From the IMG/VR virus record IMGVR_UViG_3300040801_003471, positions 1-46,843 of that record: 46,843 nt of DNA; one strand, written 5' to 3'. Under the pieces are notes generated by a model that saw only the letters and a program-made list of their open reading frames with translations, did no database searches and was not told the DNA's origin. This DNA is from a virus. The position numbers and the translations under genes are program-made. Shown in pieces: positions 2,470 through 15,216 of the stretch; position 1 is the stretch's first letter, and every line of letters begins with the position of its first letter.

Positions 2470-3156
2470 ATGAGTGTATCAATGTCACATGAATTATTAG
2501 AAGTTGAATGGTATAAACTAAGATATGACGATTTAGTTTATGATAATCAACAAGTTTTAAAAGAATCACAAAATGAAAACAATCAATTAAGATGTAAAGG
2601 TATTTCTTCGTCTTATTTTTTACATTATGAAGATTATTTTTTAGTTCTTGATATATCTAATAATAAAACTGAAATTTGTGAAGATATTGAACAAGTGCGT
2701 GAATTTGTTGGTTTTAATATATTTGATAGTTTTATTAGACCAATTTATTTTATTTTGAAATTAAGACCAATGACTAGATGGATTGATGAAGAAATAAGTG
2801 AAGCTGGATATGATAATTTATTGCCGGATATAATTGAAAATTGTATTGAAAGATTTAAAGAAGCTTCGAAAGCTAAATATAATCAACAAGGTAAATTTAT
2901 ATTAGTATTCAAAACTCGTTGGATTGGTGGTTATGATTATTATGGTGGTGGTTATGAATACGACCAAGAATGGGATTTTGCAGGATTTTTGGGCGATAAT
3001 TATGAAGTTAGAATATTTGAACTAACTGAAGAACAACAACAAGAACAAACATATATTAAACAAGCATTAAAAAGGGGAAATCGCATAGCTAATACAATTC
3101 CCCCTGCTCATCCATTACCAGGATATCAATTAGAAATATTCGATGGTTATTTCTAA
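2470..3156 (+). CDS. Hypothetical protein, 228 aa
   Basis: Not recognised. A soluble, acidic protein with many aromatic residues, no signal peptide and no membrane segment. It has a Gly/Tyr-rich stretch (YDYYGGGYEYDQEWDF, about residues 157-173) and a short Q/E-rich segment (TEEQQQEQ) near the C-terminus. It converges on the mutase gene with a 4-nt overlap of the stop codons. Codon use and A/T content match the neighbours, so it is probably a real phage gene. Confidence 0.7.
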   Translation: MSVSMSHELLEVEWYKLRYDDLVYDNQQVLKESQNENNQLRCKGISSSYFLHYEDYFLVLDISNNKTEICEDIEQVREFVGFNIFDSFIRPIYFILKLRPMTRWIDEEISEAGYDNLLPDIIENCIERFKEASKAKYNQQGKFILVFKTRWIGGYDYYGGGYEYDQEWDFAGFLGDNYEVRIFELTEEQQQEQTYIKQALKRGNRIANTIPPAHPLPGYQLEIFDGYF

Positions 3157-4274
3157 GCGTTAGCTCTTTTTAATTCAGCTTCGACGTCTCTAAGTGCTAC
3201 TGCAACGACATCTGTCATATCATAATATCGATAATCCGCTAATCTACCGCCGAATAAATATCTTTTTTCAGCATCCGCTTTTTCTTTATATTTTTGATAC
3301 AAAGAATTATTAGCAGAGTCATTAATTGGATAATATTTTTCATTTTCTCCATGTATATAGTCGGCTGGATATTCTCTAGTAATTATAGTGTGTTGAGTTT
3401 TATTTCTATCTAAATCAAACCATTTGTGTTCAAGTATTCGAGTAAATGGAACATCAGGCGATGTATAATTAATTACTGCATTGCCTTGAAATGAAGCAAT
3501 TTCTAATCTTTCATTATCAAATTTTAAACTTCGATAATCTAAACGACCAAATTCGTGATCATAAAAATCATCAAGACCGCCAGTAAATAATGTTTTGTCA
3601 GCTAACTTGTCTAATTCTACTCTATCTTCGATATAATCTACACCTAATTTTAAATCAATACCATCTAATAATTTTTCAAAAATTTGAGTGTAACCGCCAA
3701 CAGGAATTCCTTGGAATCGATCATTGAAATAATTATCATTATATTCAAGTCTTATTGGTAATCTTTTAATAATTGACGCTGGTAATGTTGCTGGATCCCG
3801 GTTCCATTGTTTTTGTGTATATCCTTCGACAAAAATTTTGTATATTTCTTCACCAACTTGAGATAATAACCAATCTCGTAAATTATCAGGTTTTTCGTCA
3901 AATTTTATTCTAACTTTTTCAAGTGCTTCTTCAGCTTCTGCAGGTGTTGTAACTCCCCAAAGTTGATGTAAAGTAAAAAGATTAATCGGAAAAGAATATA
4001 TTGTATTGTTAAAATTAACTTTTACACGATTTGTATAGTTGTTAAATTCAGCAAATTGTGTAATCCAATTCCAAATTTTCTCATTTTTAGTGTGAAATAT
4101 ATGTGCTCCATATACATGTACAGGTATTCCATCTTCATCCTGAGTGTAACAATTACCTCCGATGTGTTTTCTTTTATCGACTACTAAGCATTTATATCCT
4201 GCCTTTGTAAGCTCATTTGCCCAAATGCTGCCATAAAAACCAGCACCTACAATTAAATAATCATATTCTCTCAT
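3153..4274 (-). CDS. glf: UDP-galactopyranose mutase
   Basis: Flavoenzyme of 373 residues converting UDP-galactopyranose to UDP-galactofuranose; the length is normal for bacterial Glf. The FAD-binding Rossmann motif is VGAGFYGSIWANEL near the N-terminus, followed by the DKRKHIGGNCYT and YGAHIFHT signatures. Later come KQWNRDP, GIPVGGYT, YRSLKF, FQGNAVINYT and the C-terminal FGGRLADYRYYDM block, all matching E. coli Glf as I remember it. No inactivating change is visible. Its ATG overlaps the stop of the glycosyltransferase gene upstream (4271-4274), so the two are translationally coupled. This suggests it makes the donor sugar for that transferase. Some mutases also act on UDP-arabinopyranose, so the furanose made in vivo is not certain. 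Confidence 0.95.
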   Translation of the reverse strand: MREYDYLIVGAGFYGSIWANELTKAGYKCLVVDKRKHIGGNCYTQDEDGIPVHVYGAHIFHTKNEKIWNWITQFAEFNNYTNRVKVNFNNTIYSFPINLFTLHQLWGVTTPAEAEEALEKVRIKFDEKPDNLRDWLLSQVGEEIYKIFVEGYTQKQWNRDPATLPASIIKRLPIRLEYNDNYFNDRFQGIPVGGYTQIFEKLLDGIDLKLGVDYIEDRVELDKLADKTLFTGGLDDFYDHEFGRLDYRSLKFDNERLEIASFQGNAVINYTSPDVPFTRILEHKWFDLDRNKTQHTIITREYPADYIHGENEKYYPINDSANNSLYQKYKEKADAEKRYLFGGRLADYRYYDMTDVVAVALRDVEAELKRANA

Positions 4275-8059: not shown

Positions 8060-9877
8060 ATGAATATTATTGTTGATAAGAAAAAAGCTCTTAAGAAGTG
8101 GAGTCCTATTTTAGAATCTTTAGGTGTTACTGATAACACTGCTCAAGATTGGATGTCTGAATATGCTGAATACCACAGCATAAATGAAAATACCGCTTAC
8201 AGCACATTAGGTAACCTTTCAGGTATGGGTGGAGTACAATCTCCTCAGCCTTCAGGTATAGCTGGTGACGCTGGTTCTGGTTTATTTAACCCTGTTGCGG
8301 GTGCACAATTCGGTCAAGGTGGAGTTGCTGGTTCTGGTGATTACGGTCAGCAGTTACTTCCAGTGGCTATGAAAGTTGCTGCTCAAACTATTGGTCTTGA
8401 CCTAGTTGCAGTTAAACCTTCTCCAGGTCCTGTTATTGATCTTATGTTCATCGATTACAGATACGATGATAGAGATAGAGATCCTGATTACAACCCAGTT
8501 GTATTCAAAATTGATGCAGATGACTTAACACCTCTTCTTGCTGAAATTGATATTGCTCTTGCCGCATCTGGTGCTAACCTAACTCAAGGTGGAGTTAACA
8601 AAGCTGTATTCTTACCATTTGGTGAAAATACTCTTACTGCTGAGCCTTCGTACAATCCTGAAATGCCATCATCTGGCTTCGGAAACGCTGTACGTGCTGC
8701 TGGTGTTGTTGCTCCTAACTATACTTCTGTTGCAGATCCTGCAAACGTTGTTGGTGCTATTGAATTCCTAGGATATTCGCGTATTGATAAGAAGCCAATG
8801 TTCAGAGCTTTCCGTCAAACTAATGCTGCTGCTACTGGTGCACATTGGGTATTTGACCAAAGAAAGAATACATTTGGACAAGGTGAAGCTATTGTAGAAG
8901 CTTTTGAAAATTCTGCAGTTGCTCCTGCTGGTACTGCTGGTGGACAAACTATCGGTGGATTAACTGGTGTTTCAGTTGAACTAGTTTCAGCTCTTGAAGA
9001 TCACCTTCCTGGATTCTCTGCTGGTTTCCACAGAAAAGGCGCTATGAGTCGTAAAGACGATGAAAATACTTATCCTGGTGTTATTGCTCCTAACGTTTCT
9101 ACTAAGAGAGTACAAGTTGGTACTGTTGAAGTAAGTTCAGCTCTAAAAAGAACTGAAATTGAAGATATCAAGTCTCAGACTGGTATTGATATTGTTTCTA
9201 AATTAGAATCAGTTCTTATTAACGAACTTTCTCAAACAATCTCTAAAGAAATTGTTTACAAAGTTTTCGAACTTGGTGAGTCTAACAGAGCTACTGCTCC
9301 TCTTAACACAGGTGCTCTTTCAAATGGTGGTACTGTATTTGATTTTGATGTAGATTCTTACTTCGCTTCTGCTGCAGCTGCAGGTAATGCTGTTGCTCCA
9401 GGTGGAGAGACTACTAACAGCGCGCAAAGAAAGTTATTAACTAGAATTGACGCTGCGTCTAACTACATTGCAACTGAAGGTCGTATCGGACCTGCTCAAT
9501 ATATCGTTACTAACGCTAAATTGGGTGCGGTACTTAAGACTGCTTCAGGTTACACTATTAATCCTATTAAGAGTGCATTGAACCCTGCTGGACAACTTTA
9601 TCCTATGGGAGCAATTGGTGATTTGACAATTTATGTTGATCCATATATGCTTTACAATGATGATAGAATCGTTATGGGTAGAAAGAACAACCCTGATCAA
9701 CCTGGTTTGATCTTTGTTCCTTACCTAATGGCTCAGTCTATTAGCTTGATTTCTGAAGCAACATTCGCACCAAGAATGTTACTAAGATCTCGTTACGCTA
9801 TCACTGATGTTGGATTCTTCCCACAGAAGCAGTACATGGCTATCCACGTAACTGACACAAACGGTTACTTATCTTAA
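8060..9877 (+). CDS. gp23: Major capsid protein (T4 gp23-like)
   Basis: HK97-fold capsid protein of 605 residues (T4 gp23 has 521). The N-terminal about 43 residues form a propeptide ending SINE43/NTAYS, a good (L/I)xE site for the prohead protease encoded just upstream. Typical family blocks are LLPVAMKVAAQTIGLDLVAV (99-118), the domain around SSALKRTEIEDIKSQTGID, ASNYIATEGRIGPAQYIV and the C-terminal RSRYAITDVGFFPQKQ region. Codon use is visibly richer in GCT/GGT and other C/G-containing codons than the neighbours, as expected for very high expression. Two strong terminators follow. A related 22-residue segment reappears in the mini-gene at 14487-14738. Confidence 0.96.
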   Translation: MNIIVDKKKALKKWSPILESLGVTDNTAQDWMSEYAEYHSINENTAYSTLGNLSGMGGVQSPQPSGIAGDAGSGLFNPVAGAQFGQGGVAGSGDYGQQLLPVAMKVAAQTIGLDLVAVKPSPGPVIDLMFIDYRYDDRDRDPDYNPVVFKIDADDLTPLLAEIDIALAASGANLTQGGVNKAVFLPFGENTLTAEPSYNPEMPSSGFGNAVRAAGVVAPNYTSVADPANVVGAIEFLGYSRIDKKPMFRAFRQTNAAATGAHWVFDQRKNTFGQGEAIVEAFENSAVAPAGTAGGQTIGGLTGVSVELVSALEDHLPGFSAGFHRKGAMSRKDDENTYPGVIAPNVSTKRVQVGTVEVSSALKRTEIEDIKSQTGIDIVSKLESVLINELSQTISKEIVYKVFELGESNRATAPLNTGALSNGGTVFDFDVDSYFASAAAAGNAVAPGGETTNSAQRKLLTRIDAASNYIATEGRIGPAQYIVTNAKLGAVLKTASGYTINPIKSALNPAGQLYPMGAIGDLTIYVDPYMLYNDDRIVMGRKNNPDQPGLIFVPYLMAQSISLISEATFAPRMLLRSRYAITDVGFFPQKQYMAIHVTDTNGYLS

Positions 9878-10885: not shown

Positions 10886-12643
10886 ATGATTATTAAAGAA
10901 TTACACCTCAAAAATTTCAAATCATACGGTAACAACCTACAAACATTAAAATTAGATCCGTCGATTGGAGAGCTAATATTAGTTAATGGTCCGAATGGTG
11001 CTGGAAAGTCAACAATGAGTGATGCGATTGATTATTGTTTATATAATCAAGTTAAAGGTAAAAAGAAAAAAAGAATCGTTGCGTCATCTTTACCAAATCG
11101 ACTTAATAATAATTTATATACGAAATTAGTTTTTGATGCTGACAATACGGAATATGTTGTTGAAAGAAGTATGAATCCTGGTAAAGTTAAATTAATTGAA
11201 GGAGGAGTTCCGTATAATCGAACCGGTAAGTCCAATATTAACGATAAAATTGAAGAAACAATTAATATTGATCTTGATACCTTTAAATCATTTATATCGA
11301 TGAGTATAAATGACTTTAAAAATTTTATGACTTTAACACCTGACGAAAAAAGAAAATTGCTTGATAAATTGTTTAATCTTGGTGTTCTAAATGATTTAGC
11401 AAAAATTCTAAAAAATTTAAAAGATAACAATCAAAAAGAGTTAATTAAATATCAAGAACAGATTAATATATTTGATCAAAATGTTGAGAGTATTACAGCA
11501 ACAGTTCAAAAAATTAAAGATGCTCAAAAATTAAATTTAGCATCCGAGATGGAAATTGTTAAAAGAGAAATATTAGATAATAAGGAAGAATTTTTAGAAA
11601 AAAAGAAAAAATCCGACAATATTGCTCAAAAGGAAGTTAGATTGCAACAAATGTTGACTGAAAAAACAAATCAGTTAAATCAGGTTAAATCTAAAATTAT
11701 GTTGCAAAGAGAGAAAATGGAATTATATGATAATGATAAATGTCCCGAATGCGGTAGTGATTTATGCTCTAATGAACATCAAGAAAAGAAAGAGATACTA
11801 AAATCGGAATTTGATAAATTAAATGAATTGAAATCTGAATACGAAAAATCTTTAAAAGATATTAAAACTAAAGAATTAAAATTTTCTGAATTAAAAGAAA
11901 AATTTCAAAATTCATTTATTGAGCTTAAAACTTATTTACAACAATTAAAAAATAAATATGCAGAATTAGAAACCAAAAAAACTAATAATTCAAATACACA
12001 AGAAATTGCAGAATTATTGAAAAACATTAAACAAAATGAAAATAAGTTAGAAAAAGCTAAAGACAATAAAGATGTAAAGATTTTTAATCAAAACATTTAC
12101 AAAAAACTAGATGAATTATTTTCCGAAAATGGAATTAAAAAATCTATTATTAAAACTATAGTTGAACCAATAAATATGTACGTTGCCGAAAATCTAAAAT
12201 TGTTAGATTTGCCTTTTGAGGTTCAATTATCAGATAGTTTTGACGCATCTATTAAACTGCTTGGTAATGATATTGATGTTGAAAGTTTATCGACTGGTGA
12301 AACTAAAAAGGTAAACATTTCTATAATGTTGGCATATTTAAAAATGATTAGAATGAAGCGAAATATTAATATTTTGTTTTTAGATGAAATATTTTCAAGC
12401 ATCGATATTGAAGGTATTAATTCGATTATTCATATTTTGAAGCATTTCGCAAGAAAATGGAAAGTCAATGTTTTTTTAGTTCATCATAGTAGATTAGATA
12501 TGTATCTATTTGATAGAATTTTACATATTGAAAAAAATATTACAAGTTATATTAGAGAAGAAGTGGTGAAATCGAAAGAAGAAATATTAGGTGAAATAGA
12601 AGATCTAGAAAATATTAATAGTATAGATCAGATAAGTCTGTAA
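10886..12643 (+). CDS. gp46: Recombination endonuclease subunit gp46 (SbcC/Rad50-like ATPase)
   Basis: Protein of 585 residues (T4 gp46 has 560). An SMC-type ATPase that works with the gp47 nuclease to resect DNA ends for recombination-dependent replication and host DNA breakdown. The Walker A motif GPNGAGKS is at 35-42. Coiled-coil arms of about 100 residues on each side flank a zinc hook with CPECGSDLC at 286-294. The signature LSTGETKK and Walker B ILFLDEIFSSID are near 470-520, and HH in FLVHHSR follows. A TATATAAAA box lies 30 nt before the ATG. Its partner gp47 is more than 10 kb away at 23106 rather than adjacent as in T4. The stop overlaps the end of the converging small gene by 29 nt. 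Confidence 0.95.
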   Translation: MIIKELHLKNFKSYGNNLQTLKLDPSIGELILVNGPNGAGKSTMSDAIDYCLYNQVKGKKKKRIVASSLPNRLNNNLYTKLVFDADNTEYVVERSMNPGKVKLIEGGVPYNRTGKSNINDKIEETINIDLDTFKSFISMSINDFKNFMTLTPDEKRKLLDKLFNLGVLNDLAKILKNLKDNNQKELIKYQEQINIFDQNVESITATVQKIKDAQKLNLASEMEIVKREILDNKEEFLEKKKKSDNIAQKEVRLQQMLTEKTNQLNQVKSKIMLQREKMELYDNDKCPECGSDLCSNEHQEKKEILKSEFDKLNELKSEYEKSLKDIKTKELKFSELKEKFQNSFIELKTYLQQLKNKYAELETKKTNNSNTQEIAELLKNIKQNENKLEKAKDNKDVKIFNQNIYKKLDELFSENGIKKSIIKTIVEPINMYVAENLKLLDLPFEVQLSDSFDASIKLLGNDIDVESLSTGETKKVNISIMLAYLKMIRMKRNINILFLDEIFSSIDIEGINSIIHILKHFARKWKVNVFLVHHSRLDMYLFDRILHIEKNITSYIREEVVKSKEEILGEIEDLENINSIDQISL

Positions 12644-13105: not shown

Positions 13106-13387
13106 ATGGAAATAAAGACGTCTCTTATAGATTGGATCGGAGAACTTGAAGGTGGAGTTGCTGCTCTAATTGGATTAACACTTGATGATAAAAAAACTAT
13201 TGATGGGGTTTACTGGACACACCCAGATGGACGCCGTGGAATTAAATTAGAACATATATTCCTGAGGTATTTGAGAGTCCAGAGAGAAGAAGACATACCT
13301 TTCATTGAGGATCTGTTAAACGATGTTGAATCTATTTTACCGCCAAAGAAAGAAATATTCAAACGATTTTTAGAGGAATCAGATTAA
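13106..13387 (+). CDS. Hypothetical protein, 93 aa
   Basis: Not recognised. A compact soluble protein with no Cys. The central block DGVYWTHPDGRRGIKLEHIF is followed by an acidic helical C-terminus (EDIPFIEDLLNDVESILPPKKEIFKRFLEESD pattern in two helices). Its composition and regular secondary structure suggest a real folded protein. The stop overlaps the converging retropepsin-like gene by 9 nt. TTTATATATAACTCA precedes the ATG. Confidence 0.65.
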   Translation: MEIKTSLIDWIGELEGGVAALIGLTLDDKKTIDGVYWTHPDGRRGIKLEHIFLRYLRVQREEDIPFIEDLLNDVESILPPKKEIFKRFLEESD

Positions 13388-13807
13388 CTTATTGTATTTA
13401 TCTTTAAATGATGTGTTTTTTAAATTTATGTCAATTAAAAAATCACTAAGTGCGGTTCTACCGATCAACACTGGCATTGCCATCGCAGTTCTATCAGCCA
13501 ATGTAAATTCAGCTTCAATAGTTTTCCCAAAAATTATAATTGGAGTTTTAATTGTGAATCGTTGTTCACCTTCTCCATTTGAGGATGTAATTTCATTTAC
13601 AGTGTAATTTGTTGTGCGATATTCTTTATTTGGGAATTTGAATTGTTTGTGTTCACCTATTGTGAAGTATAAAATATCTCCTTCCAGTTTTTTAGCAGTG
13701 CAGTGAATTGAATTTAAATATGCACCAGTATCAATTTTAACAGGTACGTCTTTTAAATTTAATTCAGAAAAATCAAAATAATCTACTCTACCTAATATTT
13801 GTTTCAT
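13379..13807 (-). CDS. Retropepsin-like aspartic protease, RimB / DUF785 family
   Basis: Protein of 142 residues matching the family called putative ATP-dependent zinc protease or RimB. The active-site triplet is DTGA in VKIDTGAYLNSIHC (about residues 24-37). The family's C-terminal block is EAEFTLADRTAMAMPVLIGRTAL, where MxxPVLIGRTAL is diagnostic. A full-length single domain without signal peptide, so cytoplasmic. In bacteria these proteins sit beside RimK-type ATP-grasp glutamate ligases; no ATP-grasp gene is visible here. The function in a phage is unknown; a role in protein modification or turnover is possible. It is the last gene of the minus-strand run starting at 15216 and has its own leader, whose sequence up to the first codons is shared with the gene starting at 16960. 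Confidence 0.8.
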   Translation of the reverse strand: MKQILGRVDYFDFSELNLKDVPVKIDTGAYLNSIHCTAKKLEGDILYFTIGEHKQFKFPNKEYRTTNYTVNEITSSNGEGEQRFTIKTPIIIFGKTIEAEFTLADRTAMAMPVLIGRTALSDFLIDINLKNTSFKDKYNKLI

Positions 13808-14015: not shown

Positions 14016-14301
14016 TATTATAATCTAAATTTTCTGAACAAATTTTACACTGATCATATAAGCAAAAATCAAAGCCAACAAATCCAGTATATAAACATGC
14101 TTGTTTATCTTTTTTAATATTTCTATAATATTTACATGGTTTTGTTTTATATCCCCACTTTCCATCTTCCATTACACCAGGTTCAGTCAACATTGTATAA
14201 CAATACATTCCTTCTGGAATTTCTTTAGTTGACAATTTTACATTTAACAGATGTAGTATCTTATGCCATATAATCTCAACATATATAACTAATTTACGCA
14301 T
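14005..14301 (-). CDS. Cys-rich hypothetical protein, 98 aa
   Basis: The ATG at 14301 is chosen over one 21 nt upstream because it overlaps the upstream stop by 8 nt (ATGCGTAA), the coupling pattern seen along this operon. The N-terminus is amphipathic and hydrophobic (KLVIYVEIIWHKILHLL). The second half carries seven Cys, including KPCKYYRN, ACLYTG and CLYDQCKIC, which could bind zinc or an Fe-S cluster. No family recognised. Confidence 0.55.
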   Translation of the reverse strand: MRKLVIYVEIIWHKILHLLNVKLSTKEIPEGMYCYTMLTEPGVMEDGKWGYKTKPCKYYRNIKKDKQACLYTGFVGFDFCLYDQCKICSENLDYNNDD

Positions 14302-14506
14302 AATCTTCGAAACTAATATCATTTAACAATTCTTCATAAGATTTTGGAAGTCTACACATCCAAACCATTTTGGGATAATACGTTTTACCACTACTAAAAT
14401 TAATCATTTGTGTATCAACATATACTTTATCAACTATTGAGCGATCTGTATAGTATATTGTGTAATCTGTAGAATATCTAATTCCTTCAAAATCCGAGTC
14501 GTGCAT
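14294..14506 (-). CDS. Hypothetical protein, 70 aa, with ELLNDISFEDY tail
   Basis: Not recognised. It starts inside the end of the upstream mini-gene in another frame (20-nt overlap). The notable feature is the C-terminal YEELLNDISFEDYA, which nearly repeats IDELLNDITFDDYG in that upstream protein. The rest (STDYTIYYTDRSIVDKVYVDTQ) is beta-rich. The shared tail suggests a common short binding peptide or a partial duplication. Confidence 0.55.
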   Translation of the reverse strand: MHDSDFEGIRYSTDYTIYYTDRSIVDKVYVDTQMINFSSGKTYYPKMVWMCRLPKSYEELLNDISFEDYA

Positions 14507-14738
14507 TATTAACTAGTTCATTTTGGTAACCATAATCATCAAATGTTATATCATTTAATAATTCATCTATATCACCAAAAAATATTTTTCTTGTTTGTTC
14601 AAATGGATCAAAAAACATAAGATTTCCAACGGGCAGGTCAAGAGGTTGAACTGCAACTAAATCTAAACCGATTGTTTGAGCTGCTACTTGTCGAGCTACT
14701 GGTAATAAATCTGGTTGCCATTGTTCCTCTTCTTCCAT
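14487..14738 (-). CDS. Mini-protein carrying a major-capsid-protein segment
   Basis: Protein of 83 residues starting at ATG 14738, 2 nt before the stop of the dCTPase gene; an in-frame ATG at 14822 would overlap that gene by 83 nt and is less likely. Residues 11-32, LLPVARQVAAQTIGLDLVAV and two more, match capsid residues 99-120 at 19 of 22 positions. Similarity continues weakly (VGNLMFFDPF against VIDLMFIDYR). The codons of about half of the conserved residues differ, so this is not a recent copy or an assembly error, and the peptide looks selected. The protein then diverges into DIDELLNDITFDDY. Possible roles are a capsid assembly modulator or a relic of a vertex-protein paralog. No HK97 core is present. 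Confidence 0.7.
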   Translation of the reverse strand: MEEEEQWQPDLLPVARQVAAQTIGLDLVAVQPLDLPVGNLMFFDPFEQTRKIFFGDIDELLNDITFDDYGYQNELVNNARLGF

Positions 14739-14739
14739 C

Positions 14740-15216
14740 TTAATATCCTCTTTCTTGCCGAGCTCTATTTTCCATATTTTTTGCCCAATAAAGTTCAAAT
14801 AACTTTTTGCCATCCATACCAACAGAGATCATCATATTAAATAAGAAATGCTGAGCATCAACTAATTCATACATTAATTCTAATCTATCTCTTTCTGACA
14901 TACCAGCAAGTGTTAATTCATCCATTTTCTTGTAATCCTTTTTCCAAGGTTTCCAAGATGCATTTTTAATGCCATCGTGAATGCCACCTAATGCATCATA
15001 CGCTTCGCGAAATTCATCCTGCAAGGCGTGGTAGTTCCAATCCCAAAATTCTCTTACTTTTCTTAGTGGTGCATTTTCAAGTTCTGAAAAATTATATCCA
15101 TATACATTTTCTTGGATATCTTTTTGAAGTTTCATTAATTCAGTTAGATGCTCGGTATAATCTTCATATTTTTCTTTCAATTCTAAATCTGCACAATTAT
15201 TATCTAAATTTGCCAT
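14740..15216 (-). CDS. gp56: dCTPase/dUTPase, T4 gp56-like
   Basis: All-alpha NTP pyrophosphatase of 158 residues, close to T4 gp56 (171 aa), which hydrolyses dCTP and dUTP so that only modified cytosine enters phage DNA. Shared with gp56 as remembered: DEFREAYDALGG (67-78) against DEFRELLTSLGE, ELVDAQHFLFNM (117-128) against ELVDIFHFVLNM, and KNMENRARQERGY (146-158) against KNKENFARQDNGY. Metal ligands Glu68, Glu71, Glu117 and Asp120 are in place. It heads a run of small coupled minus-strand genes. Its presence supports a modified cytosine in the virion DNA, matching the BGT-like transferase at 4271. Confidence 0.92.
   Translation of the reverse strand: MANLDNNCADLELKEKYEDYTEHLTELMKLQKDIQENVYGYNFSELENAPLRKVREFWDWNYHALQDEFREAYDALGGIHDGIKNASWKPWKKDYKKMDELTLAGMSERDRLELMYELVDAQHFLFNMMISVGMDGKKLFELYWAKNMENRARQERGY

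Follow-up and report, generated by a model that had tools for sequence, protein, structure and literature searches.

An 83-aa gene found in the window (the whole stretch of viral DNA that was analysed, 46,843 nt) is a real gene of capsid origin that goes back to the N-terminal portion of the gene for the major capsid protein. This mini-gene is one member of a conserved group of partial capsid genes in a phage clade and is not a private relic. Judging from what is known of HK97-type shells, its product may mimic an assembly interface of the capsid, a reading to which we give a probability of roughly 0.4.

A mini-gene derived from the major capsid gene

The parent gene encodes a T4 gp23-like major capsid protein (MCP) of 605 aa (8060..9877, + strand), which scored 95.2 bits against the Pfam Gp23 family, matched the major head protein in PHROG and gave T4 gp23 as the best Foldseek matches. 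The mini-gene (14487..14738, − strand) encodes a capsid-derived core and a C-terminal extension of its own; it was recognized by its Gp23 match and by a counterpart at the equivalent gene position in the nearest relative, G002. The initial annotation had counted 19 identities between mini residues 11–32 and MCP residues 99–120 (22 positions), with different codons at nine of these 19, and both counts proved exact. The similarity continues to mini residue 44, so that the capsid-like core comprises residues 11–44 (14607..14708, −) and the copied capsid segment is MCP residues 99–132 (8354..8455, +). Over this full match, 25 of 34 residues and 70 of 102 nt are identical, and 11 of the 25 identical residues have different codons. 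The match had an E value of 2.9e-10 in a search within the window's record, which is far above chance.

Taken alone, the mini matched PF07068 (Gp23) with 29.9 bits (E 5e-7), above the curated Pfam cut-off of 24.4, and on this score it can be classed as a partial member of the family. The match spans mini residues 5–58, corresponding to model positions 2–56 of 376. With 83 aa and this part of the model only, the mini does not encode a complete HK97-type fold, in agreement with the earlier statement that the rest of the capsid fold is missing. The predicted structure of the mini lacks confidence (pLDDT 49), and the same region of the MCP model is mostly below 50.

The mini ATG lies 1 nt beyond the stop of an upstream gene for a dUTPase/NTP pyrophosphohydrolase-like protein of 158 aa in the same operon (14740..15216, −; PHROGs), and a GAGG 8 nt 5′ of the ATG (14747..14750, −) is the likely Shine–Dalgarno sequence. 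Downstream, the mini overlaps the start of an adjacent 70-aa gene (14294..14506, −) in a tightly packed operon. The start spacing, the GAGG and this overlap represent a packing typical of real phage genes. The gene located 3′ of the dUTPase gene is not conserved beyond the near relatives. The operon also contains a PF05618 Zn_protease-like gene with a retropepsin-type DTG (13379–13807, −), which adjoins the mini in G002 too. Elsewhere in the window, a UDP-galactopyranose mutase gene (3153–4274, −) lies between the gene for the portal and that for the prohead protease.

The C-terminal motif of the mini, DELLNDITFDDY (residues 58–69; 14532..14567, −), does not originate from the MCP, which is devoid of it, and is common to the G002 mini and the 70-aa gene. 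As seen by sequence comparison, the latter ends with its own version of the motif, EELLNDISFEDY. In addition, residues 8–34 of the 70-aa product correspond to a motif found within long proteins of the relatives that are taken, from their sequence, to be tail fibres, and the 70-aa gene is itself likely a fragment gene.

Counterparts in related huge phages

The window encodes T4-type portal, prohead protease, capsid, terminase and sheath proteins. Its MCP is closest to those of LR756504 (W01, 636 kb), LR745206 (W03, 635 kb), LR756502 (W04, 642 kb) and LR756501 (W02, 735 kb), and since these phages are of 635–735 kb, the genome from which the window comes is probably that of a huge T4-like phage. 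The initial annotation had proposed a search for the mini-gene in related phages and had taken absence or broken frames there as the mark of a decaying relic. Counterparts were identified in G002, W01, W03, W04, G028 and several IMG/VR huge phages, and these are open frames, with a conserved gene order in G002. All relatives with capsid-derived minis are metagenomic records. When viral contigs were searched directly with the mini, the best 80 matches were all full capsid genes.

The nearest relative, G002, is a 158-kb fragment with a capsid protein 80% identical to that of the window and an 87-aa mini counterpart. Its gene order is as in the window: gp46-like, 93-aa-like, Zn-protease-like, small gene, mini-gene and 558-aa-like. 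Two of these genes serve as markers of the conserved locus in the window, namely, the gp46/SbcC-like gene (10886..12643, +), so named from its sequence, with homologues in all relatives, and the 93-aa gene (13106..13387, +), with homologues in G002, W01, G001 and W04 and a similar gene in W03. The window and G002 minis have LLP...A.T.G.DLV.VQP and a C-terminal ND.TF.DY in common, but are only 38–39% identical, which, against 80% for the capsid proteins, indicates that the minis evolve much faster than the capsid.

In W03 and W04, about 3 kb separates the minis (157 and 165 aa, respectively) from the gp46-like gene, and this interval contains the 93-aa-like gene; the minis of G028 (134 aa) and W01 (65 aa) are located elsewhere in the genome. 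A profile scan added the minis of L383 and L385–L389 (132–163 aa). The neighbourhood of L385 and L386 is as in W03 and W04, and the genes flanking L387 upstream and downstream also match. A 126-aa ORF in L390 has a permuted order, with the spine-helix segment ahead of the segment corresponding to the Gol region of T4 gp23.

Selection on the mini-genes

The codon differences had been read in the initial annotation as a sign of long-term selection on the peptide. This reading is supported by the comparison of the mini with the MCP and by the pairs of relatives, but not by the pair formed by the window and G002. The mini core compared with the MCP gene of the same window gave pS 0.59 and pN 0.22. 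In a neutral simulation with 40 substitutions on the mini branch, about 15 of 34 residues were kept, compared with the 25 observed, and the mean pS was only 0.28; the simulation rejects neutrality provided that the mini branch carries about half of the synonymous changes, which is an assumption. Among pairs of relatives, pN/pS was 0.49 (0.37–0.63) for W03/W04 and 0.41 (0.23–0.64) for L385/L387, and three further pairs gave 0.52 (0.31–0.89), 0.57 (0.36–1.00) and 0.50 (0.37–0.70), with one weaker pair at 0.73 (0.54–0.98). The minis of the relatives are thus under purifying selection. The window/G002 pair, which is highly diverged, gave 0.93 (0.68–1.38), and taken by itself is compatible with neutrality.

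A value near 1 for this pair is what would be expected if the fragments were by-products, that is, partial duplications arising from head-cluster rearrangement or mobile endonucleases and kept neutrally or for unrelated reasons. The MCP and the gp46-like gene adjoin in the window and in W01, which would make a local duplication easy, and endonuclease genes adjoin the MCP gene in several relatives. Nevertheless, the mini family shows pN/pS of 0.4–0.5 with intervals below 1 for most pairs, its starts, insert and basic tail are conserved, and the neutral simulation fails for the window core. An origin of this kind is rather unlikely, although individual fragments are possibly such relics.

Fragments of virion genes in the clade

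We searched the proteomes of W01–W04, two partial relatives and the window with profiles of the 65 families common to W01–W04 for shorter partial paralogs; the window mini, missed by the gene caller, is outside this count. The capsid family had 16 partial paralogs, compared with 0.8 expected by length, followed by portal (four), prohead protease (four), terminase (three), sheath (two) and baseplate hub (two), while 52 of the 65 families had no fragment. In three of the 16 capsid fragments the similarity is confined to the glycine-rich N-arm, and another two fall into a group of about 250 aa that may represent a genuine minor capsid protein; after removal of these five, the excess was still large. 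Chance or a bias towards detection of the capsid was rejected as its source, because the capsid family is about as conserved (0.59) as fragment-free families (0.65, 0.56, 0.56 and 0.55).

With a broad profile including T4-like and Lak capsids, capsid fragments were not found in T4 (gp24 apart), two Lak phages, RM378, immuto, PAU, pT24, Mel-JY01 or LR756508. In contrast, capsid fragments are present in the 462-kb LR756500, and a small number of other phages carry one or a few. This distribution indicates a trait of the clade, not of genome size.

The capsid fragments derive from all parts of the MCP, not from contact elements alone, and some have an internal stop, as the by-product explanation would predict. 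Against it, GIY-YIG and HNH_3 genes are not, as a rule, beside fragments, and most core families are fragment-free. Scars of homing endonucleases were likewise rejected as a general origin, given that such genes are few and away from the fragments, even though the capsid genes of other phages do have endonucleases next to them.

The fragments might alternatively act as decoys. The mini would then display a piece of capsid sensed by bacterial immunity and occupy or misfire the sensor, and the portal, protease and terminase fragments would do likewise for other sensors. The four most fragmented families are the MCP, portal, prohead protease and terminase, and portal and terminase are known as Avs triggers. 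According to published work, Lit is triggered by the Gol peptide of T4 gp23 and CapRel by capsid proteins (PMC9712102); Thoeris responds to a capsid protein and CBASS to a prohead protease (PMC11312562). The attraction of the decoy explanation is that the fragments come from the very proteins to which defence systems respond. However, the free Gol peptide of T4 activates Lit and does not block it (PMC3014915), and the fragmented parents are also simply head and packaging genes. We consider a decoy function unlikely.

Likeness to the T4 Gol segment

Position 1 of the Gp23 model is residue 88 of T4 gp23, and an independent profile placed mini residue 5 at gp23 residue 89. The mini core thereby corresponds to about residues 95–128 of gp23, namely, the Gol region and the start of the next strand, and the mini is, by alignment, homologous to the T4 Gol segment (gp23 about 93–121). 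The residues seen in common are VQP, D and I only, and the similarity to T4 is modest. Activation of Lit in T4 depends on 13 core residues of Gol. Most minis share an N-terminal helix and the strand (L)FYxDYxY, even those without the Gol core, and this conserved strand should be the first strand of the E-loop.

Within T4 gp23, the Gol region is reported to show the highest conservation; it binds domains II and III of EF-Tu and enables cleavage by Lit (PMC3014915). The mini resembles Gol in that this 29-residue segment is homologous to it and works as a short peptide apart from the capsid fold; it differs in being a separate gene, whereas Gol lies inside gp23, and EF-Tu binding and Lit activation are facts of T4. 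Could the mini be a ligand of host EF-Tu that modulates translation or capsid folding? The independent profile aligned the mini core with gp23 about 95–116, within the region that is conserved and EF-Tu-binding in T4 (PMC3014915), and VQP, as in T4 and RM378, is kept in four minis (window, G002, W01 and G028), whereas the 12 MCPs from the near huge-phage set all have VKP. In contrast, the L385–L389 minis persist without the Gol core but with the strand and the remainder kept, so that EF-Tu binding cannot be the general function of the minis. Together with the modest residue similarity to T4, this makes the EF-Tu explanation very unlikely. A phage-encoded EF-Tu was also considered as a partner and rejected, since none is encoded in W01–W04 or the partial relatives.

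A possible role at an assembly interface

Contacts between the subunits of HK97-type shells involve the helix that follows the N-arm and the beginning of the strand after it. The mini retains just these elements, without the rest of the fold. Since the models of the mini and of the corresponding MCP region are weak, the role at an interface is drawn from general knowledge of HK97-fold shells. As a mimic of such an interface, the mini would bind capsid subunits or a capsid partner, and this binding might pace, cap or block head assembly, either of its own phage or of a co-infecting one; the unrelated C-terminal motif could add a second contact. The roles suggested in the initial annotation, namely, competition for a capsid–capsid contact, binding of the protease and limitation of the head assembly of another phage or satellite, are still candidates. 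The interface mimic is the most likely explanation in view of the homology above the cut-off, the gene order in G002, the pN/pS values of the relatives, the excess of capsid fragments and the position of the W03, W04, L385 and L386 minis, which are separated from a nearby gp46-like gene by a 93-aa-like gene. The helix and strand shared even without the Gol core, and the minis of other interlocking parts found alongside, point in the same direction. Its probability is held down by the origin of fragments from all MCP parts, by the window/G002 pair, which by itself is compatible with neutrality, and by some of the paralogs of about 250 aa, which may be ordinary minor capsid proteins.

Known systems offer partial parallels. 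The T4 vertex protein gp24 is likewise the product of a second gene derived from the capsid gene and acts in the same shell, but as a full-length paralog it has the complete fold, whereas the mini has only about 35 capsid-like residues. The capsid-remodelling proteins of satellites (Vibrio cholerae PLE) are small and thought to redirect or inhibit shell assembly; they are encoded by satellites and are not described there as partial capsid copies, and their resemblance to the mini lies in the proposed effect only (PMC10945586). T4 Inh, a prohead protease inhibitor encoded near gp24, is also a small modulator of head assembly near capsid genes. As a precedent for a capsid fragment it was rejected, because it has no Gp23-family match in Pfam and is thus not a capsid fragment.

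More broadly, the shell and packaging fragments of the relatives suggest an undescribed steering of virion assembly or misleading of capsid-sensing immunity. An open-access literature search yielded no paper describing such head-gene fragments. It is conceivable, though doubtful, that huge phages keep a system of small interface-segment proteins (capsid, portal, prohead protease, sheath and terminase), often with a genome-specific tail motif, and use them as baits or in a dominant-negative manner against rival phages or sensors of immunity. Head-gene fragments in many huge phages, concentrated on proteins that are sensed by immunity and build the prohead, would point to a new layer of phage–phage or phage–host conflict, or else a novel control of very large capsids. 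The mini is a natural stand-alone Gol segment, which makes the old question of Gol conservation directly testable. Even if the fragments do no more than persist and evolve under constraint, they bear on gene gain in huge genomes.

Tails and fused partners of the fragments

Many fragments in the relatives end in an unrelated tail, and such tails can be genome-specific, as for DPYGEExW in the 735-kb phage W02 and the DELLNDITFDDY-like motif in the window. In W02 (LR756501.1, loci L240–L276), DPYGEExW occurred 107 times in 92 proteins, often C-terminally. It was C-terminal in six of 22 fragment genes, compared with 31 of 918 other small proteins (Fisher 1e-4), and was present in one of the 65 core proteins. 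A DNA repeat was rejected as its basis: 107 of 109 six-frame occurrences were in the gene frame, with 48 different 18-mers, indicating that it is mainly a peptide motif. DPYGEE, mostly followed by x-W, behaves like a peptide-level tag in W02.

The W03/L385 type of mini has a conserved basic tail, HKKTRRSKKKK, and the insert of the W03/W04 family gave no match among the tested core proteins. Portal-like pieces adjoin the capsid mini in W03 and W04, and in L383 a 42-aa ORF with the N-terminus of the tail sheath follows it. A 456-aa protein of W02 (497197–498567) joins the tail-sheath N-terminus to the capsid Gol segment; by eye, it also has a stretch resembling the palm of family B DNA polymerase.

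Other capsid-like proteins of the relatives

A partial capsid paralog of 243–313 aa, comprising the second half of the fold, is recurrent and is a candidate minor capsid or vertex protein (W03:207176–207907, W04:234417–235202, W04:241135–241887, G001:113996–114745, W05:247592–248533, G020:178333–179229, G022:129352–130242 and W11:175824–176558). Very reduced capsid-like proteins of 169–196 aa have start, spine and end pieces (W02:276342–276932, W02:565330–565899 and W05:252195–252704). Small proteins with the capsid N-arm motif GMGAVxSP...GSGD were found at G001:156397–156771, W02:730457–730711, W03:93266–93520, W03:554784–555284, W04:80294–80539, W04:542908–543423, W01:233552–234145, G022:228074–228532 and G024:198223–198678. 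Several of them carry the motif behind an N-terminus resembling the capsid-targeting sequence of T4 (MKxxxxFxxFxxE), and these small proteins are possibly packaged internal proteins.
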